Virus record (IMG/VR): IMGVR_UViG_3300048927_000734 | Span: 1 to 37,673 of that record | Source: a virus | DNA: 37,673 nucleotides | Reading direction: 5' to 3' (one strand) | Shown: in pieces, positions 5,605 to 22,879 of the stretch | How the letters are laid out: every line of letters starts with the position of its first letter | Position numbering within the stretch: position 1 is the first letter of the stretch | Made by a program: the position numbers and the translations under genes | The notes under the pieces: generated by a model | Database searches by the model: none | What the model was told of the DNA's origin: nothing | Seen by the model: only the letters and a program-made list of their open reading frames with translations

Positions 5605-8055
5605 ATGCAGGTTGTCGCATCTGGCCAAGCTGGATTGTTCGCGATCCAGAATGCGCACGGCTTCACCATCAAGCGGCTAGACAACGGCGCGACCCATCAG
5701 AGTAGCGCGGGCGAGTTGGCTTATTATTTTGCAGGCTGCAACGATGTCACCGCGTTCACCGCAAAAAACGAACGCGAAGCGGAAGCCGCCGCCGAGGCGG
5801 CGTGGGCTGCTGACCGTGCAGTTCGTTTGTTCGTGATGTTGCTCGACCCGCAGGAGGAGCCGGGCGATCTCGCGGAGGTCGGCGAGGCACTCGACGAACT
5901 GCTCGATCTCGAAGGGACTACGGCGCGGGTTGAAAGGCAGATTTACTCCGCCCCGCTACCGCAGCCGATCGACTTTCACGCCATAGCGAAGGCACTTGAG
6001 ACTGCGCCCAAGTCTAAGGATCTGCTTGAGCGCTTCCTAGGCCTGCAATCCACAATCGCCCGAGTCAGAAACGAGTTCGACCTTATCGATGAAAGCGTCT
6101 TCGGCGACGCGCGCCGAAAGCGTGAGTTTTTCGAAGAGGCAATCGATCGGGGTAGCGTGCGTGCCCTAGTCATCGCCGCGAACACGGCTCATGTAGATAA
6201 AGCGTTGTTCCAACTCTATTCTGATCTCAAAGGGCTAGATAATCACCGGGTCATTATTCAGGCCTGGACGCAACCTTTCGCTCGCGTGCACCACAAATTC
6301 GAGCTGCGAGCTGAGCCGGAAGAACTTCATCGCGCCGCCACACCAACGAGCCCCGTCGGTGGCCGACAGGCTTACGAACGCGCACTTCAACAGCAGGTCG
6401 CGATCGTTGAGCGCATCCGCAGCGCCGATTTCGACACTGCACGGCGATTTACCCGCGACCTAATCATCGACCAACGGAACACGGGCTCATCGGAGCATCT
6501 AGCGAAATCGCTGACAAATCTGAGCCAGAAGGCCAAAGATCTAAACGTACTAGAGCTCGCTTTAGAATGGGCGACAGAGGCGGTCGAGGTTAAAGGCGAC
6601 GACGGGATAGCGCATGCTCAGTTGGCCGATTTGCTCATGCAAGTCGGCCGCTACGTCGAGGCGTCACATAGCCTAGACCTTGCCCAAACCTATGGGGAGG
6701 CTGGATTCGCAGAATCGGGGCGTGCACGGATGCTGCGCTACCAAGGGCATTACGCTGAGGCCCTTGCGGCATACCGGGAAGCGGTCAACCATTACGGGGA
6801 GGACTACGAGCAAGCTCACTACAACTTCGCAGGTATCGCCGAGTGCTTACGCGACATGGAACGCCTTGATGAGGCGCTTGCTGCTTATGATGTCGCGATC
6901 TCCCGTTGGCCGTACGAGGCGGTATTGCATGCCGGTCGCGCCGCAACGCTTGTCGAGATGGGGCGCTTCGAGGAAGCTTTGGCGGGATACGACACCGCGA
7001 TAAATCTTGACGATAACAATATTGTTTATCTCAATGGCATCGCTTCGCTCCGTCGCCGAGCCGGAGATTTTGGGACTGCAGAGTCCAGCTTCCGTGCGAT
7101 TGTGGCAGACTACCCATTCGACATATATGCGCGAGGCGGTCTCATCAGCACGCTTCGCGACGTCGGACGCTTCGGTGAAGCGGTCGACGAAGCGCGAACT
7201 CTGGTCGATTATTTTCCGGCGTCGCCGGACGCTCTTTGGATCCTAGCCGACGCGCTGATCGACGCGAAGCAGTTCGACGAGGCAAAAGATGTTCTTGACT
7301 CTGCAGTTAAGGACAATCGTCACAGCGAAGGTCTGCGTGCCGGCTTAGCCCGGATTGAGAAAGCTCGGGGGCGCTATGCCGCCGCGCTCGCCCTCTATGA
7401 CGAAGCTGCCCGGGATTTTCCGTCAAACCAATGGTTCCAGCTCGGACGTGCGGGCATGTTGCGCCGTCTTGGCAATGTCGACGAAGCATTACGCATCTAC
7501 GAGCGCGCCTTTCAACGGCACCCTCATCGCCTGAATCTGAAAAATGCGATGGCTAGTATTTTCATTCATCAGAAGCATTTCGATGAAGCGCTGCCGATGC
7601 TGACGATCGACAACCCAAGAACCACTCACGAATGGCGCAACTTCGTCCTCCGTGGCATGCTAGATAGCGAAACCGGCTTCACTGATGAGGCGCGAGAACG
7701 TTTTGAATGGGGTATCAAACGCTGCCCATTTCGACGTGAGTCGCGAATGCTTCGCGCAGCGCTAAGCAACATACAATTGCGATCGGGCGCCGCAGATCAG
7801 GCGGTCGAAACGACGAAGGATTGCGCTGACGATGTGACCGAATTGCTACGGTTCCACGCCAATGCAATGCAAGGCCACGAGGGGGTTGCTCGAGATCTTT
7901 ATCTACTTCTGAAAGAAAGCTTCTTACCCGAACCTTATCATGAGCTCCGGGATGAGATCGCACGCTACTATAATGTTGTACCGTTTCCTGCTCGTCATGA
8001 TAGGAGTTGGATTCTAGAGCGGGAATCGGACGTACTTCTGCTCGAGGCCGCCTAA
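5605..8055 (+). CDS. Large TPR-repeat protein, partner of the zinc-ribbon protein
   Basis: 816 aa. Residues 1-270 form a unique N-terminal domain (starting QAGLFAIQNAHGFTIKRLDNG, then acidic helices) with no motif I recognise. From about 300 to 740 there is an array of tetratricopeptide repeats, with repeated units such as GRYVEASHSLDLAQ, GHYAEALAAYREAV, ERLDEALAAYDVAI, GRFEEALAGYDTAI, GRYAAALALYDEAA and GNVDEALRIYERAF. The C-terminus (740-816) is not repetitive. No signal peptide or membrane segment, so cytoplasmic. The ATG abuts the stop of the zinc-ribbon gene, implying a fixed-stoichiometry pair. TPR arrays serve as sensor or scaffold in many phage-defence systems. With its position next to the repressor in the lysogeny-expressed strand, a prophage-encoded defence or exclusion role is plausible but unproven. 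Confidence 0.85.
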   Translation: MQVVASGQAGLFAIQNAHGFTIKRLDNGATHQSSAGELAYYFAGCNDVTAFTAKNEREAEAAAEAAWAADRAVRLFVMLLDPQEEPGDLAEVGEALDELLDLEGTTARVERQIYSAPLPQPIDFHAIAKALETAPKSKDLLERFLGLQSTIARVRNEFDLIDESVFGDARRKREFFEEAIDRGSVRALVIAANTAHVDKALFQLYSDLKGLDNHRVIIQAWTQPFARVHHKFELRAEPEELHRAATPTSPVGGRQAYERALQQQVAIVERIRSADFDTARRFTRDLIIDQRNTGSSEHLAKSLTNLSQKAKDLNVLELALEWATEAVEVKGDDGIAHAQLADLLMQVGRYVEASHSLDLAQTYGEAGFAESGRARMLRYQGHYAEALAAYREAVNHYGEDYEQAHYNFAGIAECLRDMERLDEALAAYDVAISRWPYEAVLHAGRAATLVEMGRFEEALAGYDTAINLDDNNIVYLNGIASLRRRAGDFGTAESSFRAIVADYPFDIYARGGLISTLRDVGRFGEAVDEARTLVDYFPASPDALWILADALIDAKQFDEAKDVLDSAVKDNRHSEGLRAGLARIEKARGRYAAALALYDEAARDFPSNQWFQLGRAGMLRRLGNVDEALRIYERAFQRHPHRLNLKNAMASIFIHQKHFDEALPMLTIDNPRTTHEWRNFVLRGMLDSETGFTDEARERFEWGIKRCPFRRESRMLRAALSNIQLRSGAADQAVETTKDCADDVTELLRFHANAMQGHEGVARDLYLLLKESFLPEPYHELRDEIARYYNVVPFPARHDRSWILERESDVLLLEAA

Positions 8056-17398: not shown

Positions 17399-17941
17399 TC
17401 AGGCGGCGAACGCCAGGCGGGTGAAGACGAGGGGCCGCGCGACGGCGATGATGCCGGTCGCGCCGGTGAAGCGGAGCCCCTGGGTGAAGGTGAAGTGCGA
17501 GCGCACCGGCTTGGTGCGGCGCACCTCGTTGATCACGGCATCGGCGAAGGCGGCGGTGGCCGGCGCGCCGTCGCCGCCGCTCAGTTCCACCGCCATGGTG
17601 AAGGTGTGGGGCTCACCCGGCGGATCGAGCTGCCACCATTCGCGCAGCGCGACGGCGCCGCCGAACGATTCGACGACAGCGCGCACCGACGAGGCGGTGC
17701 CCTTGTGGCGCTGGATCTCGATCGCGCGGCGCACGCGGGAGCGCTTCACCGCTTCCGGCCAATCGCTCGACCAAGCGTCGATCGATACCGCCCAGGCGAG
17801 GAAGGGCAGGAGCGGCAGCGGGCAGGTGTCGGGGTTGATCAGGTCGCGCAACGGCACCGGCAGATCGCCGACGCGCGCGGTGGCCGCCTCGATCGCACGC
17901 TCAAGCGCGGTGACGTTCGGGGGAAGCAGGCTGCGGGTCAT
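17399..17941 (-). CDS. I: Baseplate/tail protein I
   Basis: 180 aa. The motif SLLPPNVTALERAIEAATARV and DLINPDTCPLPLLPFLAWAVSIDAWSSDWPEAVKRSRVRRAIEIQRHKGTASSVR are diagnostic of P2 gpI (phage tail protein I). It links fibre attachment to the baseplate wedge. It overlaps J (ATGA) and precedes H by 14 bases, as in P2. Confidence 0.95.
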   Translation of the reverse strand: MTRSLLPPNVTALERAIEAATARVGDLPVPLRDLINPDTCPLPLLPFLAWAVSIDAWSSDWPEAVKRSRVRRAIEIQRHKGTASSVRAVVESFGGAVALREWWQLDPPGEPHTFTMAVELSGGDGAPATAAFADAVINEVRRTKPVRSHFTFTQGLRFTGATGIIAVARPLVFTRLAFAA

Positions 17942-18840
17942 TCGCCGATGCCCCCATAGGTGACGGTGATGCCGGTGCAGAAGGCGGCCTGCGTCCGATC
18001 AACCACGACATCAGCCGCAGGAGCGGCAAGGGCGACATTCTGGACGCCCTCGGCGTGCAGGGCGGCGAAGATGCCGGAACGCGTCACGTCGAGCCCCAGG
18101 CGGTGCTGGCGGTCCCGATATTCCTCCACCCGGCGCTGCGCCTCGGCGAGCACGATCGAGCCATCGGGGCCGCTGTACGTCGTGAGCGTGGCGGTGATCT
18201 GGTAGGGGATAATGGTGGCGGACTGCACCGTCACTGCATCGGTGAGGGGGCGCACCGTCTCGGACGAGACGTGCGCTGCGATCTTGGCGAGCAGCTCGGG
18301 CGAGGCGGTGCCGTCGCCCAGGCGCGACAGGATGGTGACCAGCACTTCCCCAGGCGCAGGGCTGGTGGCGCTGGCGTCGAGAACATCGCCATCGGCCGAG
18401 CGGGCATGGTAGATATAGGCGCCCTCCGGCCCAGCGACCGAGAAGCCCTCGGGCGCCAGCACCAGGCGGGCACGAAGCGAGGCGTCATCCTCGAAGGTGG
18501 GCGGCACGTTGTTGGTGGGGTCGCCGGGATCCAGCTCGAGCCGGGTGACGTTCATCAGCGCGGCGAGGTGGTCCAGATCCGAGCCGGTAGCGAAGGCGGG
18601 CATCACGGCTTTCGCCGCGTCGTTGATCCGGCCGCGCAGCAGCAGCTCTCGATAGGCGGCGAGCTGCAGGATCATCACCGCCGGGTCGGATTCGACGGTC
18701 GCGTCGAAGTCGGGCTTCAACTCCAGCAATGCGGCGAGGATCTCGCCATAGATTTGCTCGAAGCTGAGCTGCTCGATCACCTTCGGCGCCGGCAGGCGCG
18801 AGAGATCGACTGCGGTGAAGGTTACGGAGCTATCGGCCAT
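17938..18840 (-). CDS. J: Baseplate assembly protein J
   Basis: 300 aa from the ATG at 18840 (the usual MADSSVTFTAVDLSRLPAP start); an in-frame ATG at 18849 exists. LLLRGRINDAAKAVMPAFATGSDLDHLAALMNV and GTASPELLAKIAAHVSSETVRPLTD are typical of P2 gpJ / gp6-like wedge proteins. It heads a J-I-H transcript whose putative late operator lies at 18886-18909. In P2, J follows W, but here W is downstream of H. Confidence 0.95.
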   Translation of the reverse strand: MADSSVTFTAVDLSRLPAPKVIEQLSFEQIYGEILAALLELKPDFDATVESDPAVMILQLAAYRELLLRGRINDAAKAVMPAFATGSDLDHLAALMNVTRLELDPGDPTNNVPPTFEDDASLRARLVLAPEGFSVAGPEGAYIYHARSADGDVLDASATSPAPGEVLVTILSRLGDGTASPELLAKIAAHVSSETVRPLTDAVTVQSATIIPYQITATLTTYSGPDGSIVLAEAQRRVEEYRDRQHRLGLDVTRSGIFAALHAEGVQNVALAAPAADVVVDRTQAAFCTGITVTYGGIGE

Positions 18841-18885
18841 GCCGCCCATGTCGCGGCGGCGCGGCTGTCGAGGCTAGCGGGGGCG

Positions 18886-18909
18886 CTTGTGAAAGGCGAG
18901 TTTCACAAG
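18886..18909 (-). promoter_or_regulatory. Late-promoter operator dyad upstream of J
   Basis: CTTGTGAAA-N6-TTTCACAAG, identical arms to the dyads at 15447 and 30879. Its centre is about 57 bases upstream of the J start at 18840, nearly the same distance as at V. This supports a common activator site and gives J-I-H a separate late promoter. Confidence 0.75.
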
Positions 18910-18961
18910 GTCAGCGGGAAGGGCCAACGGCCGAATGTGGTGGTTAGCTGCCGTTACGAGC

Positions 18962-19210
18962 CTACTTCTCGCGTGTTTCCACGACATGGAGGTTGAACGG
19001 CTTGCCCGAGATGTCCAAGGTGCAACCCCAAGCCTTTGCAACACCTGGCACAGGCTTGGGCGTCATTCTCATGAGATCACCAAAGGCGGGCTTCAACTCA
19101 GGAAATGAGGACGAAATCGGCGCAAGCAAGAAGCCGGTATAGTTGCTGCTTCTATCCTGAAACACTTTCGTGCTGCCATTATAAGACATGACGTACGTGT
19201 AGAGCGGCAT
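18962..19210 (-). CDS. 82-aa orphan cargo protein
   Basis: ATG at 19210 with AGAGGG about 9 bases upstream. The protein starts PLYTYVMSYNGSTKVFQDRSSNYTGFL, a short beta-meander, and ends in SGKPFNLHVVETREK. No family recognised. It sits at the J-side edge of the moron region, upstream of the late operator on the same strand but separated from J by the dyad. Composition is lower in G+C than the phage core genes. Confidence 0.62.
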   Translation of the reverse strand: MPLYTYVMSYNGSTKVFQDRSSNYTGFLLAPISSSFPELKPAFGDLMRMTPKPVPGVAKAWGCTLDISGKPFNLHVVETREK

Positions 19211-19279
19211 CGTTTTTTTCCCTCTGCACCGTGACGGTTGCATGTACGACGAAGTGCCCCCTCGATCAATGTCGCGCTT

Positions 19280-19378
19280 TGGGCGGGAGCGGAACGGCAG
19301 CTTTTTCATCCGAAGCGGAACGGCGGCTCCTGGCGCGGCCGGGGCACTGACCGGCCGAAAATGGTGGAAACCTGCCGA
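19280..19378. repeat. Intergenic repeat copy 1 (long form)
   Basis: About 100 bp, starting GGGCGGGAGCGGAACGGCAG, with AAGCGGAACGGCGGCT in the middle and GGCCGAAAATGGTGGAAA near the end. Long-form copies recur at 19851 and 21354. It separates the 82-aa gene from the DUF4279-like gene. Confidence 0.85.
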
Positions 19379-19422
19379 TGCACTTCCTAGCGGCGAGCAT
19401 CAATTGATGCGATTAGGCTGCT

Positions 19423-19839
19423 ATGGGCATACTGCATAAATCCGCCGCTACGATTGGCTTCTACGGTGATGATCTCGACCCCACAGCGATCACGGAGGCG
19501 TTGGGCGCCGAACCTACCGTCGGTGTTAGAAAAGGCGGTGTGTGGAAGACCAAGTCCGGAGCGGTAAAACCGGCGGTGACTGGATCGTGGAGGATCGAAG
19601 CTGGATACTGTGAGCCGGGTGATCTCGATGGCCAAATCAACGGCTTGCTTGACAGTTTGTCGGACGATCTAGTTGCATGGCGATCCTTTTCAAAGCGACA
19701 CCGTGGCCGGGCATTCTGTGGGCTGTTTCTCGACAGCGGGAACGAAGCTCTTACGTTACGGTCTGAGACGCTGTTGCGCCTCGGTGAGCGCGGGTTGCTG
19801 ATTGACCTCGACATCTACGGTTTGGATCGGCTTGATTAA
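19423..19839 (+). CDS. DUF4279-like orphan protein
   Basis: 138 aa. The pattern AATIGFYGDDLDPTAITEALGAEPTVGVRKGG, then TGSWRIEAGY, fits the DUF4279 family, whose members often occur as immunity-like or orphan proteins in polymorphic toxin loci and accessory regions. No toxin gene accompanies it here. Plus-strand, flanked by repeat copies on both sides. Function unknown. Confidence 0.72.
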   Translation: MGILHKSAATIGFYGDDLDPTAITEALGAEPTVGVRKGGVWKTKSGAVKPAVTGSWRIEAGYCEPGDLDGQINGLLDSLSDDLVAWRSFSKRHRGRAFCGLFLDSGNEALTLRSETLLRLGERGLLIDLDIYGLDRLD

Positions 19840-19850
19840 ACGTCCGCTTC

Positions 19851-19953
19851 TGGGGCGGGAGCGGACCGGCAGCTTTTTCATCCAAAGCGGAACGGCGGCT
19901 GCTGGCACGGTGGCGGCGCTGAGCGGCCGGAAATGGGTGGGAAGCGGTCATTC
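19851..19953. repeat. Intergenic repeat copy 2 (long form)
   Basis: About 103 bp, starting TGGGGCGGGAGCGGACCGGC and ending GGCCGGAAATGGGTGGGAAGCGGTCATTC. It supplies the stop codon of the convergent 123-aa gene (19948-19950). Confidence 0.85.
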
Positions 19954-20319
19954 AACAGTGAGCCGTTTGACCGCCGACCGCATGTCATCGCTTGTGAGTT
20001 GGTCGAGATCTGCCATCTCGATCAACCAAATTGCCTCGTTCACAGCATCGTCACCAAACTCGAAATCACCAAAAATGATGCAGGTGGCTGCGTAGTTGGC
20101 GGTTTCTAGGCTCAGGCGCTGTCCAGCCACAGCTTCCAGCAGCCGTCGCGCATGATCGCGCGTGATAATTGTGTCCGGCCCAGGTGTGATGACAACGCGC
20201 CCCTCACCAGTCTCATTGCAGGCCAAATTACATGCCCTGGCTTCGTCGGCCACTTCCTCGTCAAATTGCTCAGGCGTAAGTCTGCCTTCCAAAAAGGCCA
20301 CGAGTGAAGCGTGTTCCAT
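19948..20319 (-). CDS. 123-aa orphan acidic protein
   Basis: Begins EHASLVAFLEGRLTPEQFDEEVADEARAC, a helical acidic domain, and continues with VVITPGPDTIITRDHARRLLEAVAGQRLSLETANYAATCIIFGDFEFGDD. Overall it looks like a small acidic immunity-type protein but I do not recognise the family. Its last codons and stop lie inside repeat copy 2, so the reading frame may originally have ended differently. Confidence 0.65.
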   Translation of the reverse strand: MEHASLVAFLEGRLTPEQFDEEVADEARACNLACNETGEGRVVITPGPDTIITRDHARRLLEAVAGQRLSLETANYAATCIIFGDFEFGDDAVNEAIWLIEMADLDQLTSDDMRSAVKRLTVE

Positions 20320-20355
20320 CTCGATGAAATTAGCGACTTACCTAATGACCGCAAC

Positions 20356-20398
20356 TGGGGCGGCAGCCGCCACGGCGGAAAATGGGTGGTCAGCGAAC
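20356..20398. repeat. Intergenic repeat copy 3 (short form)
   Basis: About 43 bp: TGGGGCGGCAGCCGCCACGG then CGGAAAATGGGTGGTCAGCG. It has the ends of the long copies but lacks their middle, where a GGCAGCCGCC palindrome is left. It contains the stop codon of the 112-aa gene. Confidence 0.75.
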
Positions 20399-20728
20399 GT
20401 TTGGCGCGGCGGTGGGGACCTGCTCACCGAGCAAGCGAACCTCACTGCTGTTCGCAACGACATCACGCCCATCAAGCGTTCGCAATCCGAAGACCGCATC
20501 GCCGTCCGGATCGGTTACGTGGCGTTCGGCCTGCACCAGGATCGCAGGCACCTCCGCTTCATCAGTGTCATGCCACATAGCATATTGAGGCACCGCGACC
20601 TCGAACGGCTCGCTTTGTTGAGCATCGTCGCACTGCTGGCAGAAAACCGCGCTGCCCCTGTCGACATCGTGAACAGTCGCTGGACGGCCAGCGATAAAGC
20701 CCATTGTGGGAAGTGCAGGCCATGTCAT
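20390..20728 (-). CDS. 112-aa orphan protein with CxxC
   Basis: I prefer the internal ATG at 20728 (TWPALPTMGFIAGRPATVHDVD...) because the longer version (to 20782) starts inside a repeat copy. It contains FCQQCDDAQ and a C-terminal DPDGDAVFGLRTLDGRDVVANSSEVRLLGEQ. Possibly a small metal- or redox-linked protein. Family not recognised; stop codon is within repeat copy 3. Confidence 0.5.
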   Translation of the reverse strand: MTWPALPTMGFIAGRPATVHDVDRGSAVFCQQCDDAQQSEPFEVAVPQYAMWHDTDEAEVPAILVQAERHVTDPDGDAVFGLRTLDGRDVVANSSEVRLLGEQVPTAAPNVR

Positions 20729-20763
20729 TCGGTGACCATCGGCCCGACAATCAATGTCTGCAA

Positions 20764-20810
20764 GTGGGGCGGGAGCCGCCATGGCGGAAAATGGTGGAGA
20801 GCGGACAGTC
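20764..20810. repeat. Intergenic repeat copy 4 (short form)
   Basis: About 47 bp: GTGGGGCGGGAGCCGCCATG then GCGGAAAATGGTGGAGAGCGGACAG. Same organisation as copy 3. It separates the 112-aa gene (minus) from the 141-aa gene (plus). Confidence 0.75.
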
Positions 20811-20878
20811 TGCGTACGGGTGTCGACGGGCGGAAAGCTGCCGTTGCACCGAACGCCCTAGGCTGGCAGCATAAAGCC

Positions 20879-21304
20879 ATGCGAGTTGATCCTTCTGAAT
20901 ATATGCAGCTGCGGTCTTGGTTCAGCCATATGGTTCCTAAGGTCTTTCCATCGGACCTGCTGACCCCTGACACTCATCCGATTGCTATTCTCGATGCAAT
21001 GGCAGTGAAAACCCCCGCCAAGGCGCGGAGCGGCTTAGGTATGGCAATCGGGGACATTCTCGAGTTTACGAGTGACTGGCCCACCAGCGACGTGACCGCG
21101 TGCGACCACGAGCTTTCGCAATCGGGATTGCCGACATTGTCGGCAGTGCGCGCGAGGTTTTCTAAGCTGGTGCAGCGAGTTGTTCGCCGGGGTCAGATCA
21201 AGAGCGAGGATGAGTTCTACGCCCTCCGCAACGCAGTCGAGCAGCAGTGCGCGGACTCAGCAAGCCTGTGGCCGCTACTCGCGGCATACGAGGCGCGAAA
21301 CTGA
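20879..21304 (+). CDS. 141-aa orphan helical protein
   Basis: ATG at 20879; the same frame is open upstream but that part is low-quality sequence crossing other genes. The protein (DPSEYMQLRSWFSHMVPKVFPSDLLTPD..., GMAIGDILEFTSDWP..., LQRVVRRGQIKSEDEFYALRNAVEQQ) is mostly helical. The ending IKSEDEFYALRNAVEQQCADSAS resembles small immunity-like or contact-dependent accessory proteins. No firm family. Confidence 0.62.
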   Translation: MRVDPSEYMQLRSWFSHMVPKVFPSDLLTPDTHPIAILDAMAVKTPAKARSGLGMAIGDILEFTSDWPTSDVTACDHELSQSGLPTLSAVRARFSKLVQRVVRRGQIKSEDEFYALRNAVEQQCADSASLWPLLAAYEARN

Positions 21305-21353
21305 CCGGCGACCGCTTTCGGGTAACCCAAGCGCTGACCTAAACGACTAGGTT

Positions 21354-21454
21354 TGGGGCGGCAGCGGACCGGCAGCTTCTCCCTCCGAAGCGGAACGGCG
21401 GCTCCTGCCAGGAGCGCGGCGCTGATCGGCCGAAAATGGTGAGAAGCTGCCACT
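21354..21454. repeat. Intergenic repeat copy 5 (long form)
   Basis: About 100 bp: TTGGGGCGGCAGCGGACCGG..., AAGCGGAACGGCGGCTCCTG, then GGCCGAAAATGGTGAGAAGC. It matches copies 1 and 2 over its full length and lies between the 141-aa gene and the membrane protein gene. Confidence 0.85.
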
Positions 21455-21459
21455 CAGAC

Positions 21460-21738
21460 TCAGGTTCCCGCGTCTCTAAAAAGCGGAACAACAACGCCGC
21501 GAAGGCAAGACGCAACGGTCGCGGTCAAGAGCCAAACAAAGGCGAAAATATTCAAGGTGTCGGCGACCTGCGAGGAAATAGGCGCCGAGATATTCACTCC
21601 GACCGCATGCAGCCCCAATATTGCAAATGCGCCATAACTTGCTGATCTCGCCTTTTCGACTGAGATACGGCCGGAGGCTATCATCGTTAGGCCGAGGGCG
21701 GCCAGGCCAAGTGCCACCGTGGATGTAATCTCCGTCAT
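21460..21738 (-). CDS. 92-aa membrane protein
   Basis: ATG at 21738 with a strong GGAGGT site 7 bases upstream. Likely two or three membrane segments: ITSTVALGLAALGLTMIASG, ASYGAFAILGLHAVGVNI and LNIFAFVWLLTATVAS. Function unknown; small membrane morons can alter phage adsorption or exclusion, but nothing specific is visible. Confidence 0.65.
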   Translation of the reverse strand: MTEITSTVALGLAALGLTMIASGRISVEKARSASYGAFAILGLHAVGVNISAPISSQVADTLNIFAFVWLLTATVASCLRGVVVPLFRDAGT

Positions 21739-21796
21739 CTAAGTGACCTCCCGGACCAGTTGGGCGTCAAGCTGCCATAGATGTGCAATGTCCGAA

Positions 21797-21816
21797 AGTG
21801 GGGCGTTAGCGGTCAG
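21797..21816. repeat. Intergenic repeat fragment (copy 6)
   Basis: AGTGGGGCGTTAGCGGTCAG is a short relative of the repeat ends. It abuts the stop of tail gene S (21813) and marks the right boundary of the cargo array. A GGCGTTAGCGGACAG relative also occurs near 36400. Confidence 0.5.
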
Positions 21817-22481
21817 ACCCGATTCGTTAGATGCCGCAGCAGCAGGTCGAGCATAGCGCCCGCTTCGGCATCAGTGACGCCAAGCAGCGCGCGGCGCGCA
21901 TAGCGCACAGGCTTCGCCTTGGCCGCTGGCCGATCCATCAACCCCTCTTGCGACACGCTCGCGATCTCCGAGGCGCGTCCAGCGAAGCCGATCCATGCCT
22001 CGCGATCGGTGGCGCCAGCGCGCAGATTGCGCCCATTACGGAGCTTGCGGAACATGGCAGCGCGGCGGATGCTGCCCTTGCGCCGGTACTTGCCCGCGCC
22101 CTTGTTCTGCTCGTCGGGCTCCAGCGGCAACCAGCGGTCGACCTTGTCCCAGAAGAAGCTGCGCACGCCGCCGGCCTCGACGTCGTAGCCGGTGAGCAGG
22201 TTGCCCTCGTGCGCCCAGCTTTTCATGAGGACCAGGCGCGGCTCGGCCGCTCCCTTGGGATAGAGGAACTTCACCGCATAGTTGCCGGGGCGCGGGGCAG
22301 GTTTGGCCTTGCGCGGCGTATAGCCGCTCCCATCAGGGTTCTGCTGGCGACCGATGCGGTCGGACTGCGAGCGCTGCAGATCCTTCGCCATGGCCCGCAG
22401 GATGCGGCGGCGCTCCGGGGGCGCTGTCGCGCGCAGCAGCGCCCCCGCGATCCGCTCCAGCTCGGCCAGGTCGCCGCTCAT
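21813..22481 (-). CDS. S: Tail completion protein S
   Basis: 222 aa from the ATG at 22481, overlapping the R stop. LRATAPPERRRILRAMAKDLQRSQSDRIGRQQNPDGSGYTPRKA is a clear P2 gpS (phage virion morphogenesis) motif. The tail (VRYARRALLGVTDAEAGAMLDLLLRHL) is also typical. It helps complete and join tails to heads. Confidence 0.93.
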   Translation of the reverse strand: MSGDLAELERIAGALLRATAPPERRRILRAMAKDLQRSQSDRIGRQQNPDGSGYTPRKAKPAPRPGNYAVKFLYPKGAAEPRLVLMKSWAHEGNLLTGYDVEAGGVRSFFWDKVDRWLPLEPDEQNKGAGKYRRKGSIRRAAMFRKLRNGRNLRAGATDREAWIGFAGRASEIASVSQEGLMDRPAAKAKPVRYARRALLGVTDAEAGAMLDLLLRHLTNRV

Positions 22482-22879
22482 TCGCAGAGCCGCGGCTCGG
22501 GCAGGTGCACGGCGTTGAAGCCGCCTTCCGCCAGCGCTTGCACCGATACCGCCTCTGTCAGCTCGATCCATAGCGACACGTCCGCCGAATCGGCGTCGAG
22601 GAGTTCGGACTCGAAGCGGAAGGGCTCCTGCTGGCCCGCCTCCAGCAGCTCGGGCTGCGCTTCGGCGATCCAGGCGAGAATTGGCACCATGAGACCATCG
22701 ATCGAGCCGGCATAGTCCTGCACGACGATGTTGAGCGTGTAGCGATACTCGAAGGACAGCCCGCCGGGCCGCGCGGCAACGCGGCCCTTGTCGACGAAGA
22801 GGCTGAGCTTCGAGGGATCTGCGCCGAGCTGGGGCACATGGGCCAGCAGCACGCGGCGCAGGGTATCCGGCTTTTCCAT
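22478..22879 (-). CDS. R: Tail completion protein R
   Basis: 133 aa from the ATG at 22879 (MEKPDTLRRVLLAHVPQLGADP...). LSLFVDKGRVAARPGGLSFEYRYTLNIVVQDYAGSIDGLMVPILAWIAEAQPELL matches P2 gpR. It lies next to S as in P2, with the spike gene inserted directly upstream. Confidence 0.93.
   Translation of the reverse strand: MEKPDTLRRVLLAHVPQLGADPSKLSLFVDKGRVAARPGGLSFEYRYTLNIVVQDYAGSIDGLMVPILAWIAEAQPELLEAGQQEPFRFESELLDADSADVSLWIELTEAVSVQALAEGGFNAVHLPEPRLCE

Follow-up and report, generated by a model that had tools for sequence, protein, structure and literature searches.

We found that a stretch of viral DNA of 37,673 bases (hereafter the window) carries, between its genes S and J, an insert of six single-gene cassettes at 18925-21817, bordered by copies of a ~31-bp site. 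With a probability of about 0.72, we read this region as six independently mobile gene cassettes in an S-J hotspot of a P2-like Sphingomonas phage, exchanged at the core of the site. That the region is a cassette array is well supported, and site-specific recombination is its likely origin, judging from sequence comparison. In that comparison, the cassettes appear as units with their joint at the site core and with sites in uniform orientation; similar arrays occur in chromosomes, and related phages have the gap either empty or differently filled. The features generally taken to mark mobile gene cassettes were found here, namely a unit at unrelated loci, joints at the site and arrays in a single orientation. 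The window is a P2-like phage, in which gpR, S, J, I, the sheath, the P2 capsid and a tyrosine integrase were recognised, and its J has the closest named-genome matches in a Sphingomonas metagenome-assembled genome prophage (96%), S. pituitosa (89%) and S. pokkalii (81%).

The site has the consensus AAYGTCCGCAATTGGGTSGTTAGCGGACgTT, from a matrix built from 269 sequences. Seven window sites score above 15, all on the plus strand and all within the insert, while 200 shuffled windows gave a mean of 0.05 and a maximum of 1 at that score. Weaker window copies, whose core lacks one base, fill out a scheme in which each gene lies between a b site and an a site. The features of the locus are as follows (aa, amino acids; ORF, open reading frame; G and L numbers denote the genomes and loci compared).

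17938-18849, minus strand: anchor gene J (baseplate, PF04865), left of the hotspot; its start is at 18849
18925-18955, plus strand: left boundary site, b type, CAACGGCCGAATGTGGTGGTTAGCTGCCGTT, one base short in the core; matrix score 12.9
18962-19309, minus strand: cassette 1 gene, orphan, 115-aa ORF; cassette found alone in G098 (89%)
19268-19379, plus strand: junction 1 (long copy 1), a site 19268-19298, non-coding spacer, b site ~19350-19379
19423-19839, plus strand: cassette 2 gene, 138 aa, DUF4279 (Pfam 5.6e-19)
19839-19952, plus strand: junction 2 (long copy 2), a site 19839-19869 and b site 19922-19952; matrix scores 26.7 and 32.8
19948-20319, minus strand: cassette 3 gene, 123 aa, orphan, stop codon inside a b site
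20344-20401, plus strand: junction 3 (short copy 1), a site 20344-20374 (matrix score 25.8) and, overlapping it, b site 20371-20401 (28.3)
20390-20782, minus strand: cassette 4 gene, orphan, 130-aa ORF (112 aa from an internal start), stop codon inside a b site
20753-20809, plus strand: junction 4 (short copy 2), a site 20753-20783 (matrix score 29.1) and b site 20779-20809 (6.9)
20879-21304, plus strand: cassette 5 gene, 141 aa, orphan
21342-21454, plus strand: junction 5 (long copy 3), a site 21342-21372 (matrix score 21.4) and b site ~21424-21454, read from the sequence
21460-21738, minus strand: cassette 6 gene, 92 aa, orphan
21787-21817, plus strand: right boundary site, a type, AATGTCCGAAAGTGGGGCGTTAGCGGTCAGA, touching the S stop; matrix score 35.3, the best of the window
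21813-22571, minus strand: anchor gene S (P2 gpS-like virion morphogenesis, PF05069), right of the hotspot; its stop is at 21813

The six small genes in mixed orientation between J and S that a preliminary description of the window had noted are present (in order -, +, -, -, +, -). The repeat family that it placed at all five internal junctions and at the right boundary is also there, forming direct repeats at the junctions, although the copy at the left boundary (18925-18955) had been missed. Its division into three long copies (19278-19376, 19850-19948 and 21353-21451, with a mutual likeness of 79-83%) and two short copies (20344-20385 and 20753-20794, 88% alike) holds, while the supposed fragment at the right (21787-21817) turned out to be the complete, best-scoring site. 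The basic repeat unit is the ~31-bp site; an internal junction is an a...b pair, whose cores are separated by ~81-83 bp in a long copy and by 26-27 bp in a short copy, and the array reads b-gene-a six times. The b site of junction 1 was read from the sequence (TGGTGG core) and lies under the matrix threshold. Repeats supply stop codons, as had been proposed, for cassettes 3 and 4; the TAA of cassette 2 has one base in common with an a site, the first of that site, and the remaining genes take no stop from a repeat. For cassette 1, a start at 19209 (82 aa) is probable, and it is more plausible because the 115-aa ORF would begin within the repeat. The cassette 6 product is probably a membrane protein, judging from its hydrophobic segments.

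Where the same cassette occurs at unrelated loci, the homology stops inside the site, at the TGGG/TGG core. Such breakpoints lie in the site at four loci for cassette 2 (L280, L282, L288, L289), at three for cassette 5 (L281, L284, L285) and at one each for cassette 3 (L283) and cassette 1 (L287), and the homology likewise breaks inside the site in the array of G112. In the joint profile, all 41 selected pairs (23 at cassette starts, 18 at cassette ends) had unrelated far-side sequence, a count that is not a probability because the pairs were selected near sites and share members. Averaged over these starts and ends, identity shifts from the level of unrelated sites to that of the cassette at approximately TGGG/TGG. 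At cassette starts, the identity at core position 0 was 0.83 against a site-only baseline of 0.53, and there was no identity excess just before the core (0.59 vs 0.71). When all loci were aligned against all, 10% of the alignment ends lay no more than 10 bp from the core in both loci, compared with 0.0% at random positions. The alignment of repeat copies that the preliminary description had suggested for detecting recombination joints does place them at a defined position.

The same locus varies among related phages and is not one conserved block. Five phages whose J is 84-96% identical to that of the window (L005, L008, L009, L084, L085) have an empty S-J gap, 58-59 bp long; different inserts occupy the gap in L010/L086, L011, L012 and others. 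Four phages (L004, L006, L166, L371) hold other cassettes bordered by the same ~31-bp site. The nearest viral contig, L004 (J 96%), matches the left boundary of the window to 18955 and then continues into another cassette, so the break between the two lies inside the boundary site. Several sites lie in the S-J gap of L006, L166, L179, L023 and L371, in either orientation relative to J. Over all compared phage loci, we counted 21 sites in 191 kb of S-J interval against 10 in the 1.875 Mb outside it; repeated counting of one contig (L012 and L162, probably also L013) accounts for a few of the 21. As a separate observation, the S-J gap of L010 and L086 (9085-9940) and of L011 (5488-6110) holds cargo free of the site, indicating that the hotspot also accepts ordinary morons.

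Cassettes and sites are found in Sphingomonas chromosomes as well. When the window insert was compared with 295 genomes of the genus, cassettes 1, 2, 3 and 5 were each found singly at unrelated loci, in most cases at ~70-90% identity, no two window cassettes were adjacent in any of these genomes, and cassettes 4 and 6 had no chromosomal relatives among them. Cassette 2 stands alone in G438 (91%), G002, G074, G019 and others, cassette 3 in G072 (86%) and G400 (69%), and cassette 5 in G102, G496, G057, G400 and G129 (72-84%). A distant homologue of cassette 3 in G246 is likewise flanked by sites, a 45% homologue of cassette 5 in G283 has a site immediately upstream, and a search for viral homologues of cassette 5 found none. 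A strict half-site pattern, with one mismatch, gave 69 matches in 38 of 151 Sphingomonas-genus genomes, and the reversed pattern gave 2. In 400 kb sampled from S. pokkalii no site scored above 15; G246, over 200 kb, has strong sites only around the cassette 3 homologue. Repeats of this kind are not ubiquitous between host genes; ubiquity was the outcome that the preliminary description had set against a cassette array. An ordinary ubiquitous host repeat was rejected, as 800 kb from three chromosomes contain the strict half-site motif a single time and the insert contains several copies. Together, the variable phage loci, the separate gene-plus-site units in chromosomes and the joints at a defined place support the array suggested in the preliminary description.

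Chromosomal arrays resembling that of the window were found in G112 and G048, the latter with 24-25 sites in ~7 kb. In 20 regions and the window, neighbouring sites 100-1200 bp apart have the same orientation in 64 cases and the opposite in 1, and 28 site pairs lie 59-61 bp apart. An ORF of at least 55 aa is present in 121 of 127 cassettes, whose median length is 490 bp with 80% coding, and the ORF runs against the site direction in 79 and with it in 42. Non-coding units of ~60 bp and 230 bp are also dispersed. The 230-bp unit has at least five near-identical copies in G090 (L270, L272-L275), lying inside a complete site in all five compared, and would be either an ORF-less cassette or a miniature inverted-repeat transposable element (MITE) using the cassette site. 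Three pairs of filled and empty chromosomal alleles were found (L336/L143, L231/L340, L344/L316), with no clear target-site duplication in any of the three, and one chromosomal locus holds different cassettes in two genomes (L235/L243). L148 (G001:C32:1-20000), where sites of either orientation are interspersed with repeated insertion-sequence-like sequences of ~250 bp and 1 kb, may be an array in decay.

In the mechanism that we propose, a cassette would consist of one small gene in either orientation, with the right half-site TGGNNAGCGGACRTT at one end and the left half-site AAYGTCCGCAANTGGG at the other. Since the half-sites stand at opposite ends, closing a cassette into a circle would create a single complete ~31-bp site. 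Cassettes would enter and leave through recombination between directly oriented sites at the TGGG/TGG core, an exchange that would keep a single site direction while the cassettes change neighbours. We infer a circular intermediate and a site-specific recombinase, either dedicated or of the host. The cassettes and sites also form arrays in Sphingomonas chromosomes, and phages may acquire and exchange them in the gap that separates two tail operons. Arms around a short centre are the layout of recombinase core sites. The ~31-bp site can be read as 11-12 bp arms around 7-8 bp, which would fit the core layout of a tyrosine or serine recombinase.

The search for such an enzyme gave the following. 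Tyrosine recombinases (PF00589) occur in all genomes tested and are not consistently beside arrays; one lies near an array only in G460 (on both sides, within ~5 kb) and G104 (~4 kb). The G460 locus (L343, G460:C1:585001-605000), where tyrosine recombinase genes stand to either side of an array of at least 12 sites, is the only one so closely flanked. No integron integrase (IntI, TIGR02249) was above the cutoff in 15 genomes, and in that search genomes with strong arrays, among them G048, G505 and G112, had general tyrosine recombinases only. A Y1 (RAYT) transposase (PF01797) was found in only 2 of 10 array-bearing genomes. A dedicated serine recombinase (PF00239) was rejected, being absent from G505 and G483, and the cassette proteins scanned included no recombinase and no transposase family. 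This leaves as candidates a tyrosine recombinase of the host (XerC/XerD or another), an enzyme that has so far escaped recognition and RecA-type recombination; the sharp joint and the strict orientation lead us to favour a site-specific recombinase.

Several points weigh against cassette exchange at the site. No recombinase was found in the arrays or consistently beside them, and cassette excision is presumed. The site arms show no covariation within sites, across site pairs or, clearly, across cassette ends, where the arm-to-arm matching is weak (z 1.76); no hairpin was found within a site or across a site pair, and an Rfam search of the insert gave no structured RNA above the gathering score. 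Some of these loci also served to train the site matrix, and the joint-profile pairs were chosen for ending near sites, several sharing a member, so that not all are independent. Close copies of a cassette do not always agree in their arms (cassette 1, window versus L287), implying that the exact crossover may extend beyond the core. Moreover, the empty chromosomal alleles contain no site, which leaves the arrival of a first cassette unexplained.

Other explanations were considered. The sites could be ordinary dispersed repeats, with RecA-dependent or illegitimate recombination moving the cassettes without any dedicated recombinase. This would fit the negative recombinase search and the arms that differ between copies of one cassette, and circles formed between direct repeats would also predict uniform orientation; yet the sites have only ~31 bp in common, and these diverged, while the joints in many comparisons fall within a few bases of one core, and long arrays keep the 64:1 orientation. 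We regard it as a possible explanation, if an unlikely one. Distinctly unlikely, in our judgement, is a MITE-like non-autonomous transposon with inverted ends (GCGGACRTT) that captured a gene, is moved by a transposase in trans and inserted beside its own copies. The cassette ends are in outline inverted repeats of each other, with the weak end-to-end arm matching given above, and both the dispersed non-coding units and the empty alleles without a site would be expected of such an element. However, random insertion predicts both orientations, which the 64:1 ratio contradicts, the multi-copy units lie within a complete site, and no transposase family was found in the cassettes.

That the insert is a single fragment of host chromosome with dispersed intergenic repeats, transferred once, would accord with its host-type cassettes (0 of 6 matched in PHROGs) and with the presence of the repeat in host chromosomes. 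It is very improbable given that the window cassettes stand side by side in none of the 295 genomes, that the nearest phage contig switches cassette within the boundary site and that other phages have other cassettes in the S-J gap, in either orientation. A degraded classical integron, that is, a cluster of attC sites without an integrase (CALIN), is scarcely credible, even though arrays of single-gene, mostly orphan cassettes and paired simple sites ~60 bp apart are what it would show and integrons occur in phages (PMC9892861). The attC core GTTRRRY is not enriched, with 9 occurrences in 283 site windows which, with 6 of RYYYAAC, compare with 22 together in 280 controls; the integrase search was negative, and the genes point both ways (79:42). 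On the attC core and the integrase, a classical integron was rejected. Complete integrons are also very rare in Alphaproteobacteria, with only 6, in Sphingobium and Agrobacterium (PMC9024848).

The content of the cassettes is host-type and mostly orphan. Few of 84 cassette proteins scanned against Pfam match any family: DUF4279 was found in two proteins, and WapI immunity, SMI1/KNR4, SUKH_5, SUKH_6, DUF6572, DUF7668, DUF5818, DUF7336, pentapeptide repeats and EamA once each, although some of these single-family matches may be one and the same protein. DUF4279 is the only family match among the six cassette genes of the window, PADLOC gave one weak match, and NCBIfam adds mainly the pentapeptide protein. 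The orphan-immunity content anticipated in the preliminary description is only weakly supported: a handful of immunity-type proteins (WapI, SMI1/KNR4, SUKH) occur among the 84, most of which are unmatched. Some cassette proteins may plausibly have an immunity role.

Outside the array, an 816-aa protein with tetratricopeptide repeats is encoded at 5605-8055 (plus strand), opposite to the phage structural genes, and is perhaps further cargo. A small dyad, TTGTGAAA...TTTCACAA, lies just upstream of J in the S-J gap of the empty phages L005, L008, L009 and L084 and at 18893-18917 of the window. Its arms change together between phages (also TTGTAAA...TTTACAA and TGTAGAG...CTCTACA), and it may be a late promoter element or the site of a late-operon activator.

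Whether sphingomonads possess a cassette system of their own, apart from integrons and dif, with a new ~31-bp site, a presumed recombinase and arrays of orphan and immunity-type genes from which phages load, is a proposal for which we see even odds. We found no description of such a system in the open-access literature, the only literature covered, and the claim of novelty is limited accordingly. If true, it would be a further case of gene capture and shuffling by short sites, and it would give an origin for many sphingomonad orphan genes and a phage route carrying them. The cassettes are a ready list of uncharacterised small proteins, some of immunity type, and the enzyme question is directly testable because arrays and empty alleles are named.

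Among known systems, the gpA-gpQ region of E. coli P2-like phages is a cargo hotspot (PMC9122126), and the S-J gap resembles it in placing small, fast-turnover cargo between conserved phage genes; it differs in its position, in holding an array of several cassettes whose joints all carry one common site and in having no clear known defence family. Like REP/BIME elements with their RAYT (TnpA_REP), the sites are short palindromic intergenic repeats that are dispersed, but they adjoin swapped genes and hold to a single orientation; REP/RAYT was rejected, as 8 of 10 array-bearing genomes have no Y1 transposase. The likeness to the dif/pdif modules of Acinetobacter (XerC/XerD) lies in modules between short arm-spacer-arm sites that can use a host recombinase and carry no integrase of their own. 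In pdif modules the sites alternate in inverse orientation, whereas the array sites all point one way. Xer dif modules were rejected on sequence and on orientation (64 same, 1 opposite); the best ungapped match to dif, taken from E. coli and not from Sphingomonas, covered 12 positions against a shuffled mean of 10.7 (sd 1.1). A pdif site is 28 bp long, arm-spacer-arm (PMC6449649).

The closest resemblance in organisation is to integron cassettes and CALINs, which share the compact, mostly single-gene orphan arrays, the precise joints, some ORF-less cassettes and directly repeated, imperfectly palindromic sites, often as two simple sites ~60 bp apart. Unlike them, the array has no GTTRRRY core and no integron integrase, holds genes in both orientations and has joints at both members of a site pair. 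By the tests made, the array is not an integron cassette array, although it behaves as one would.

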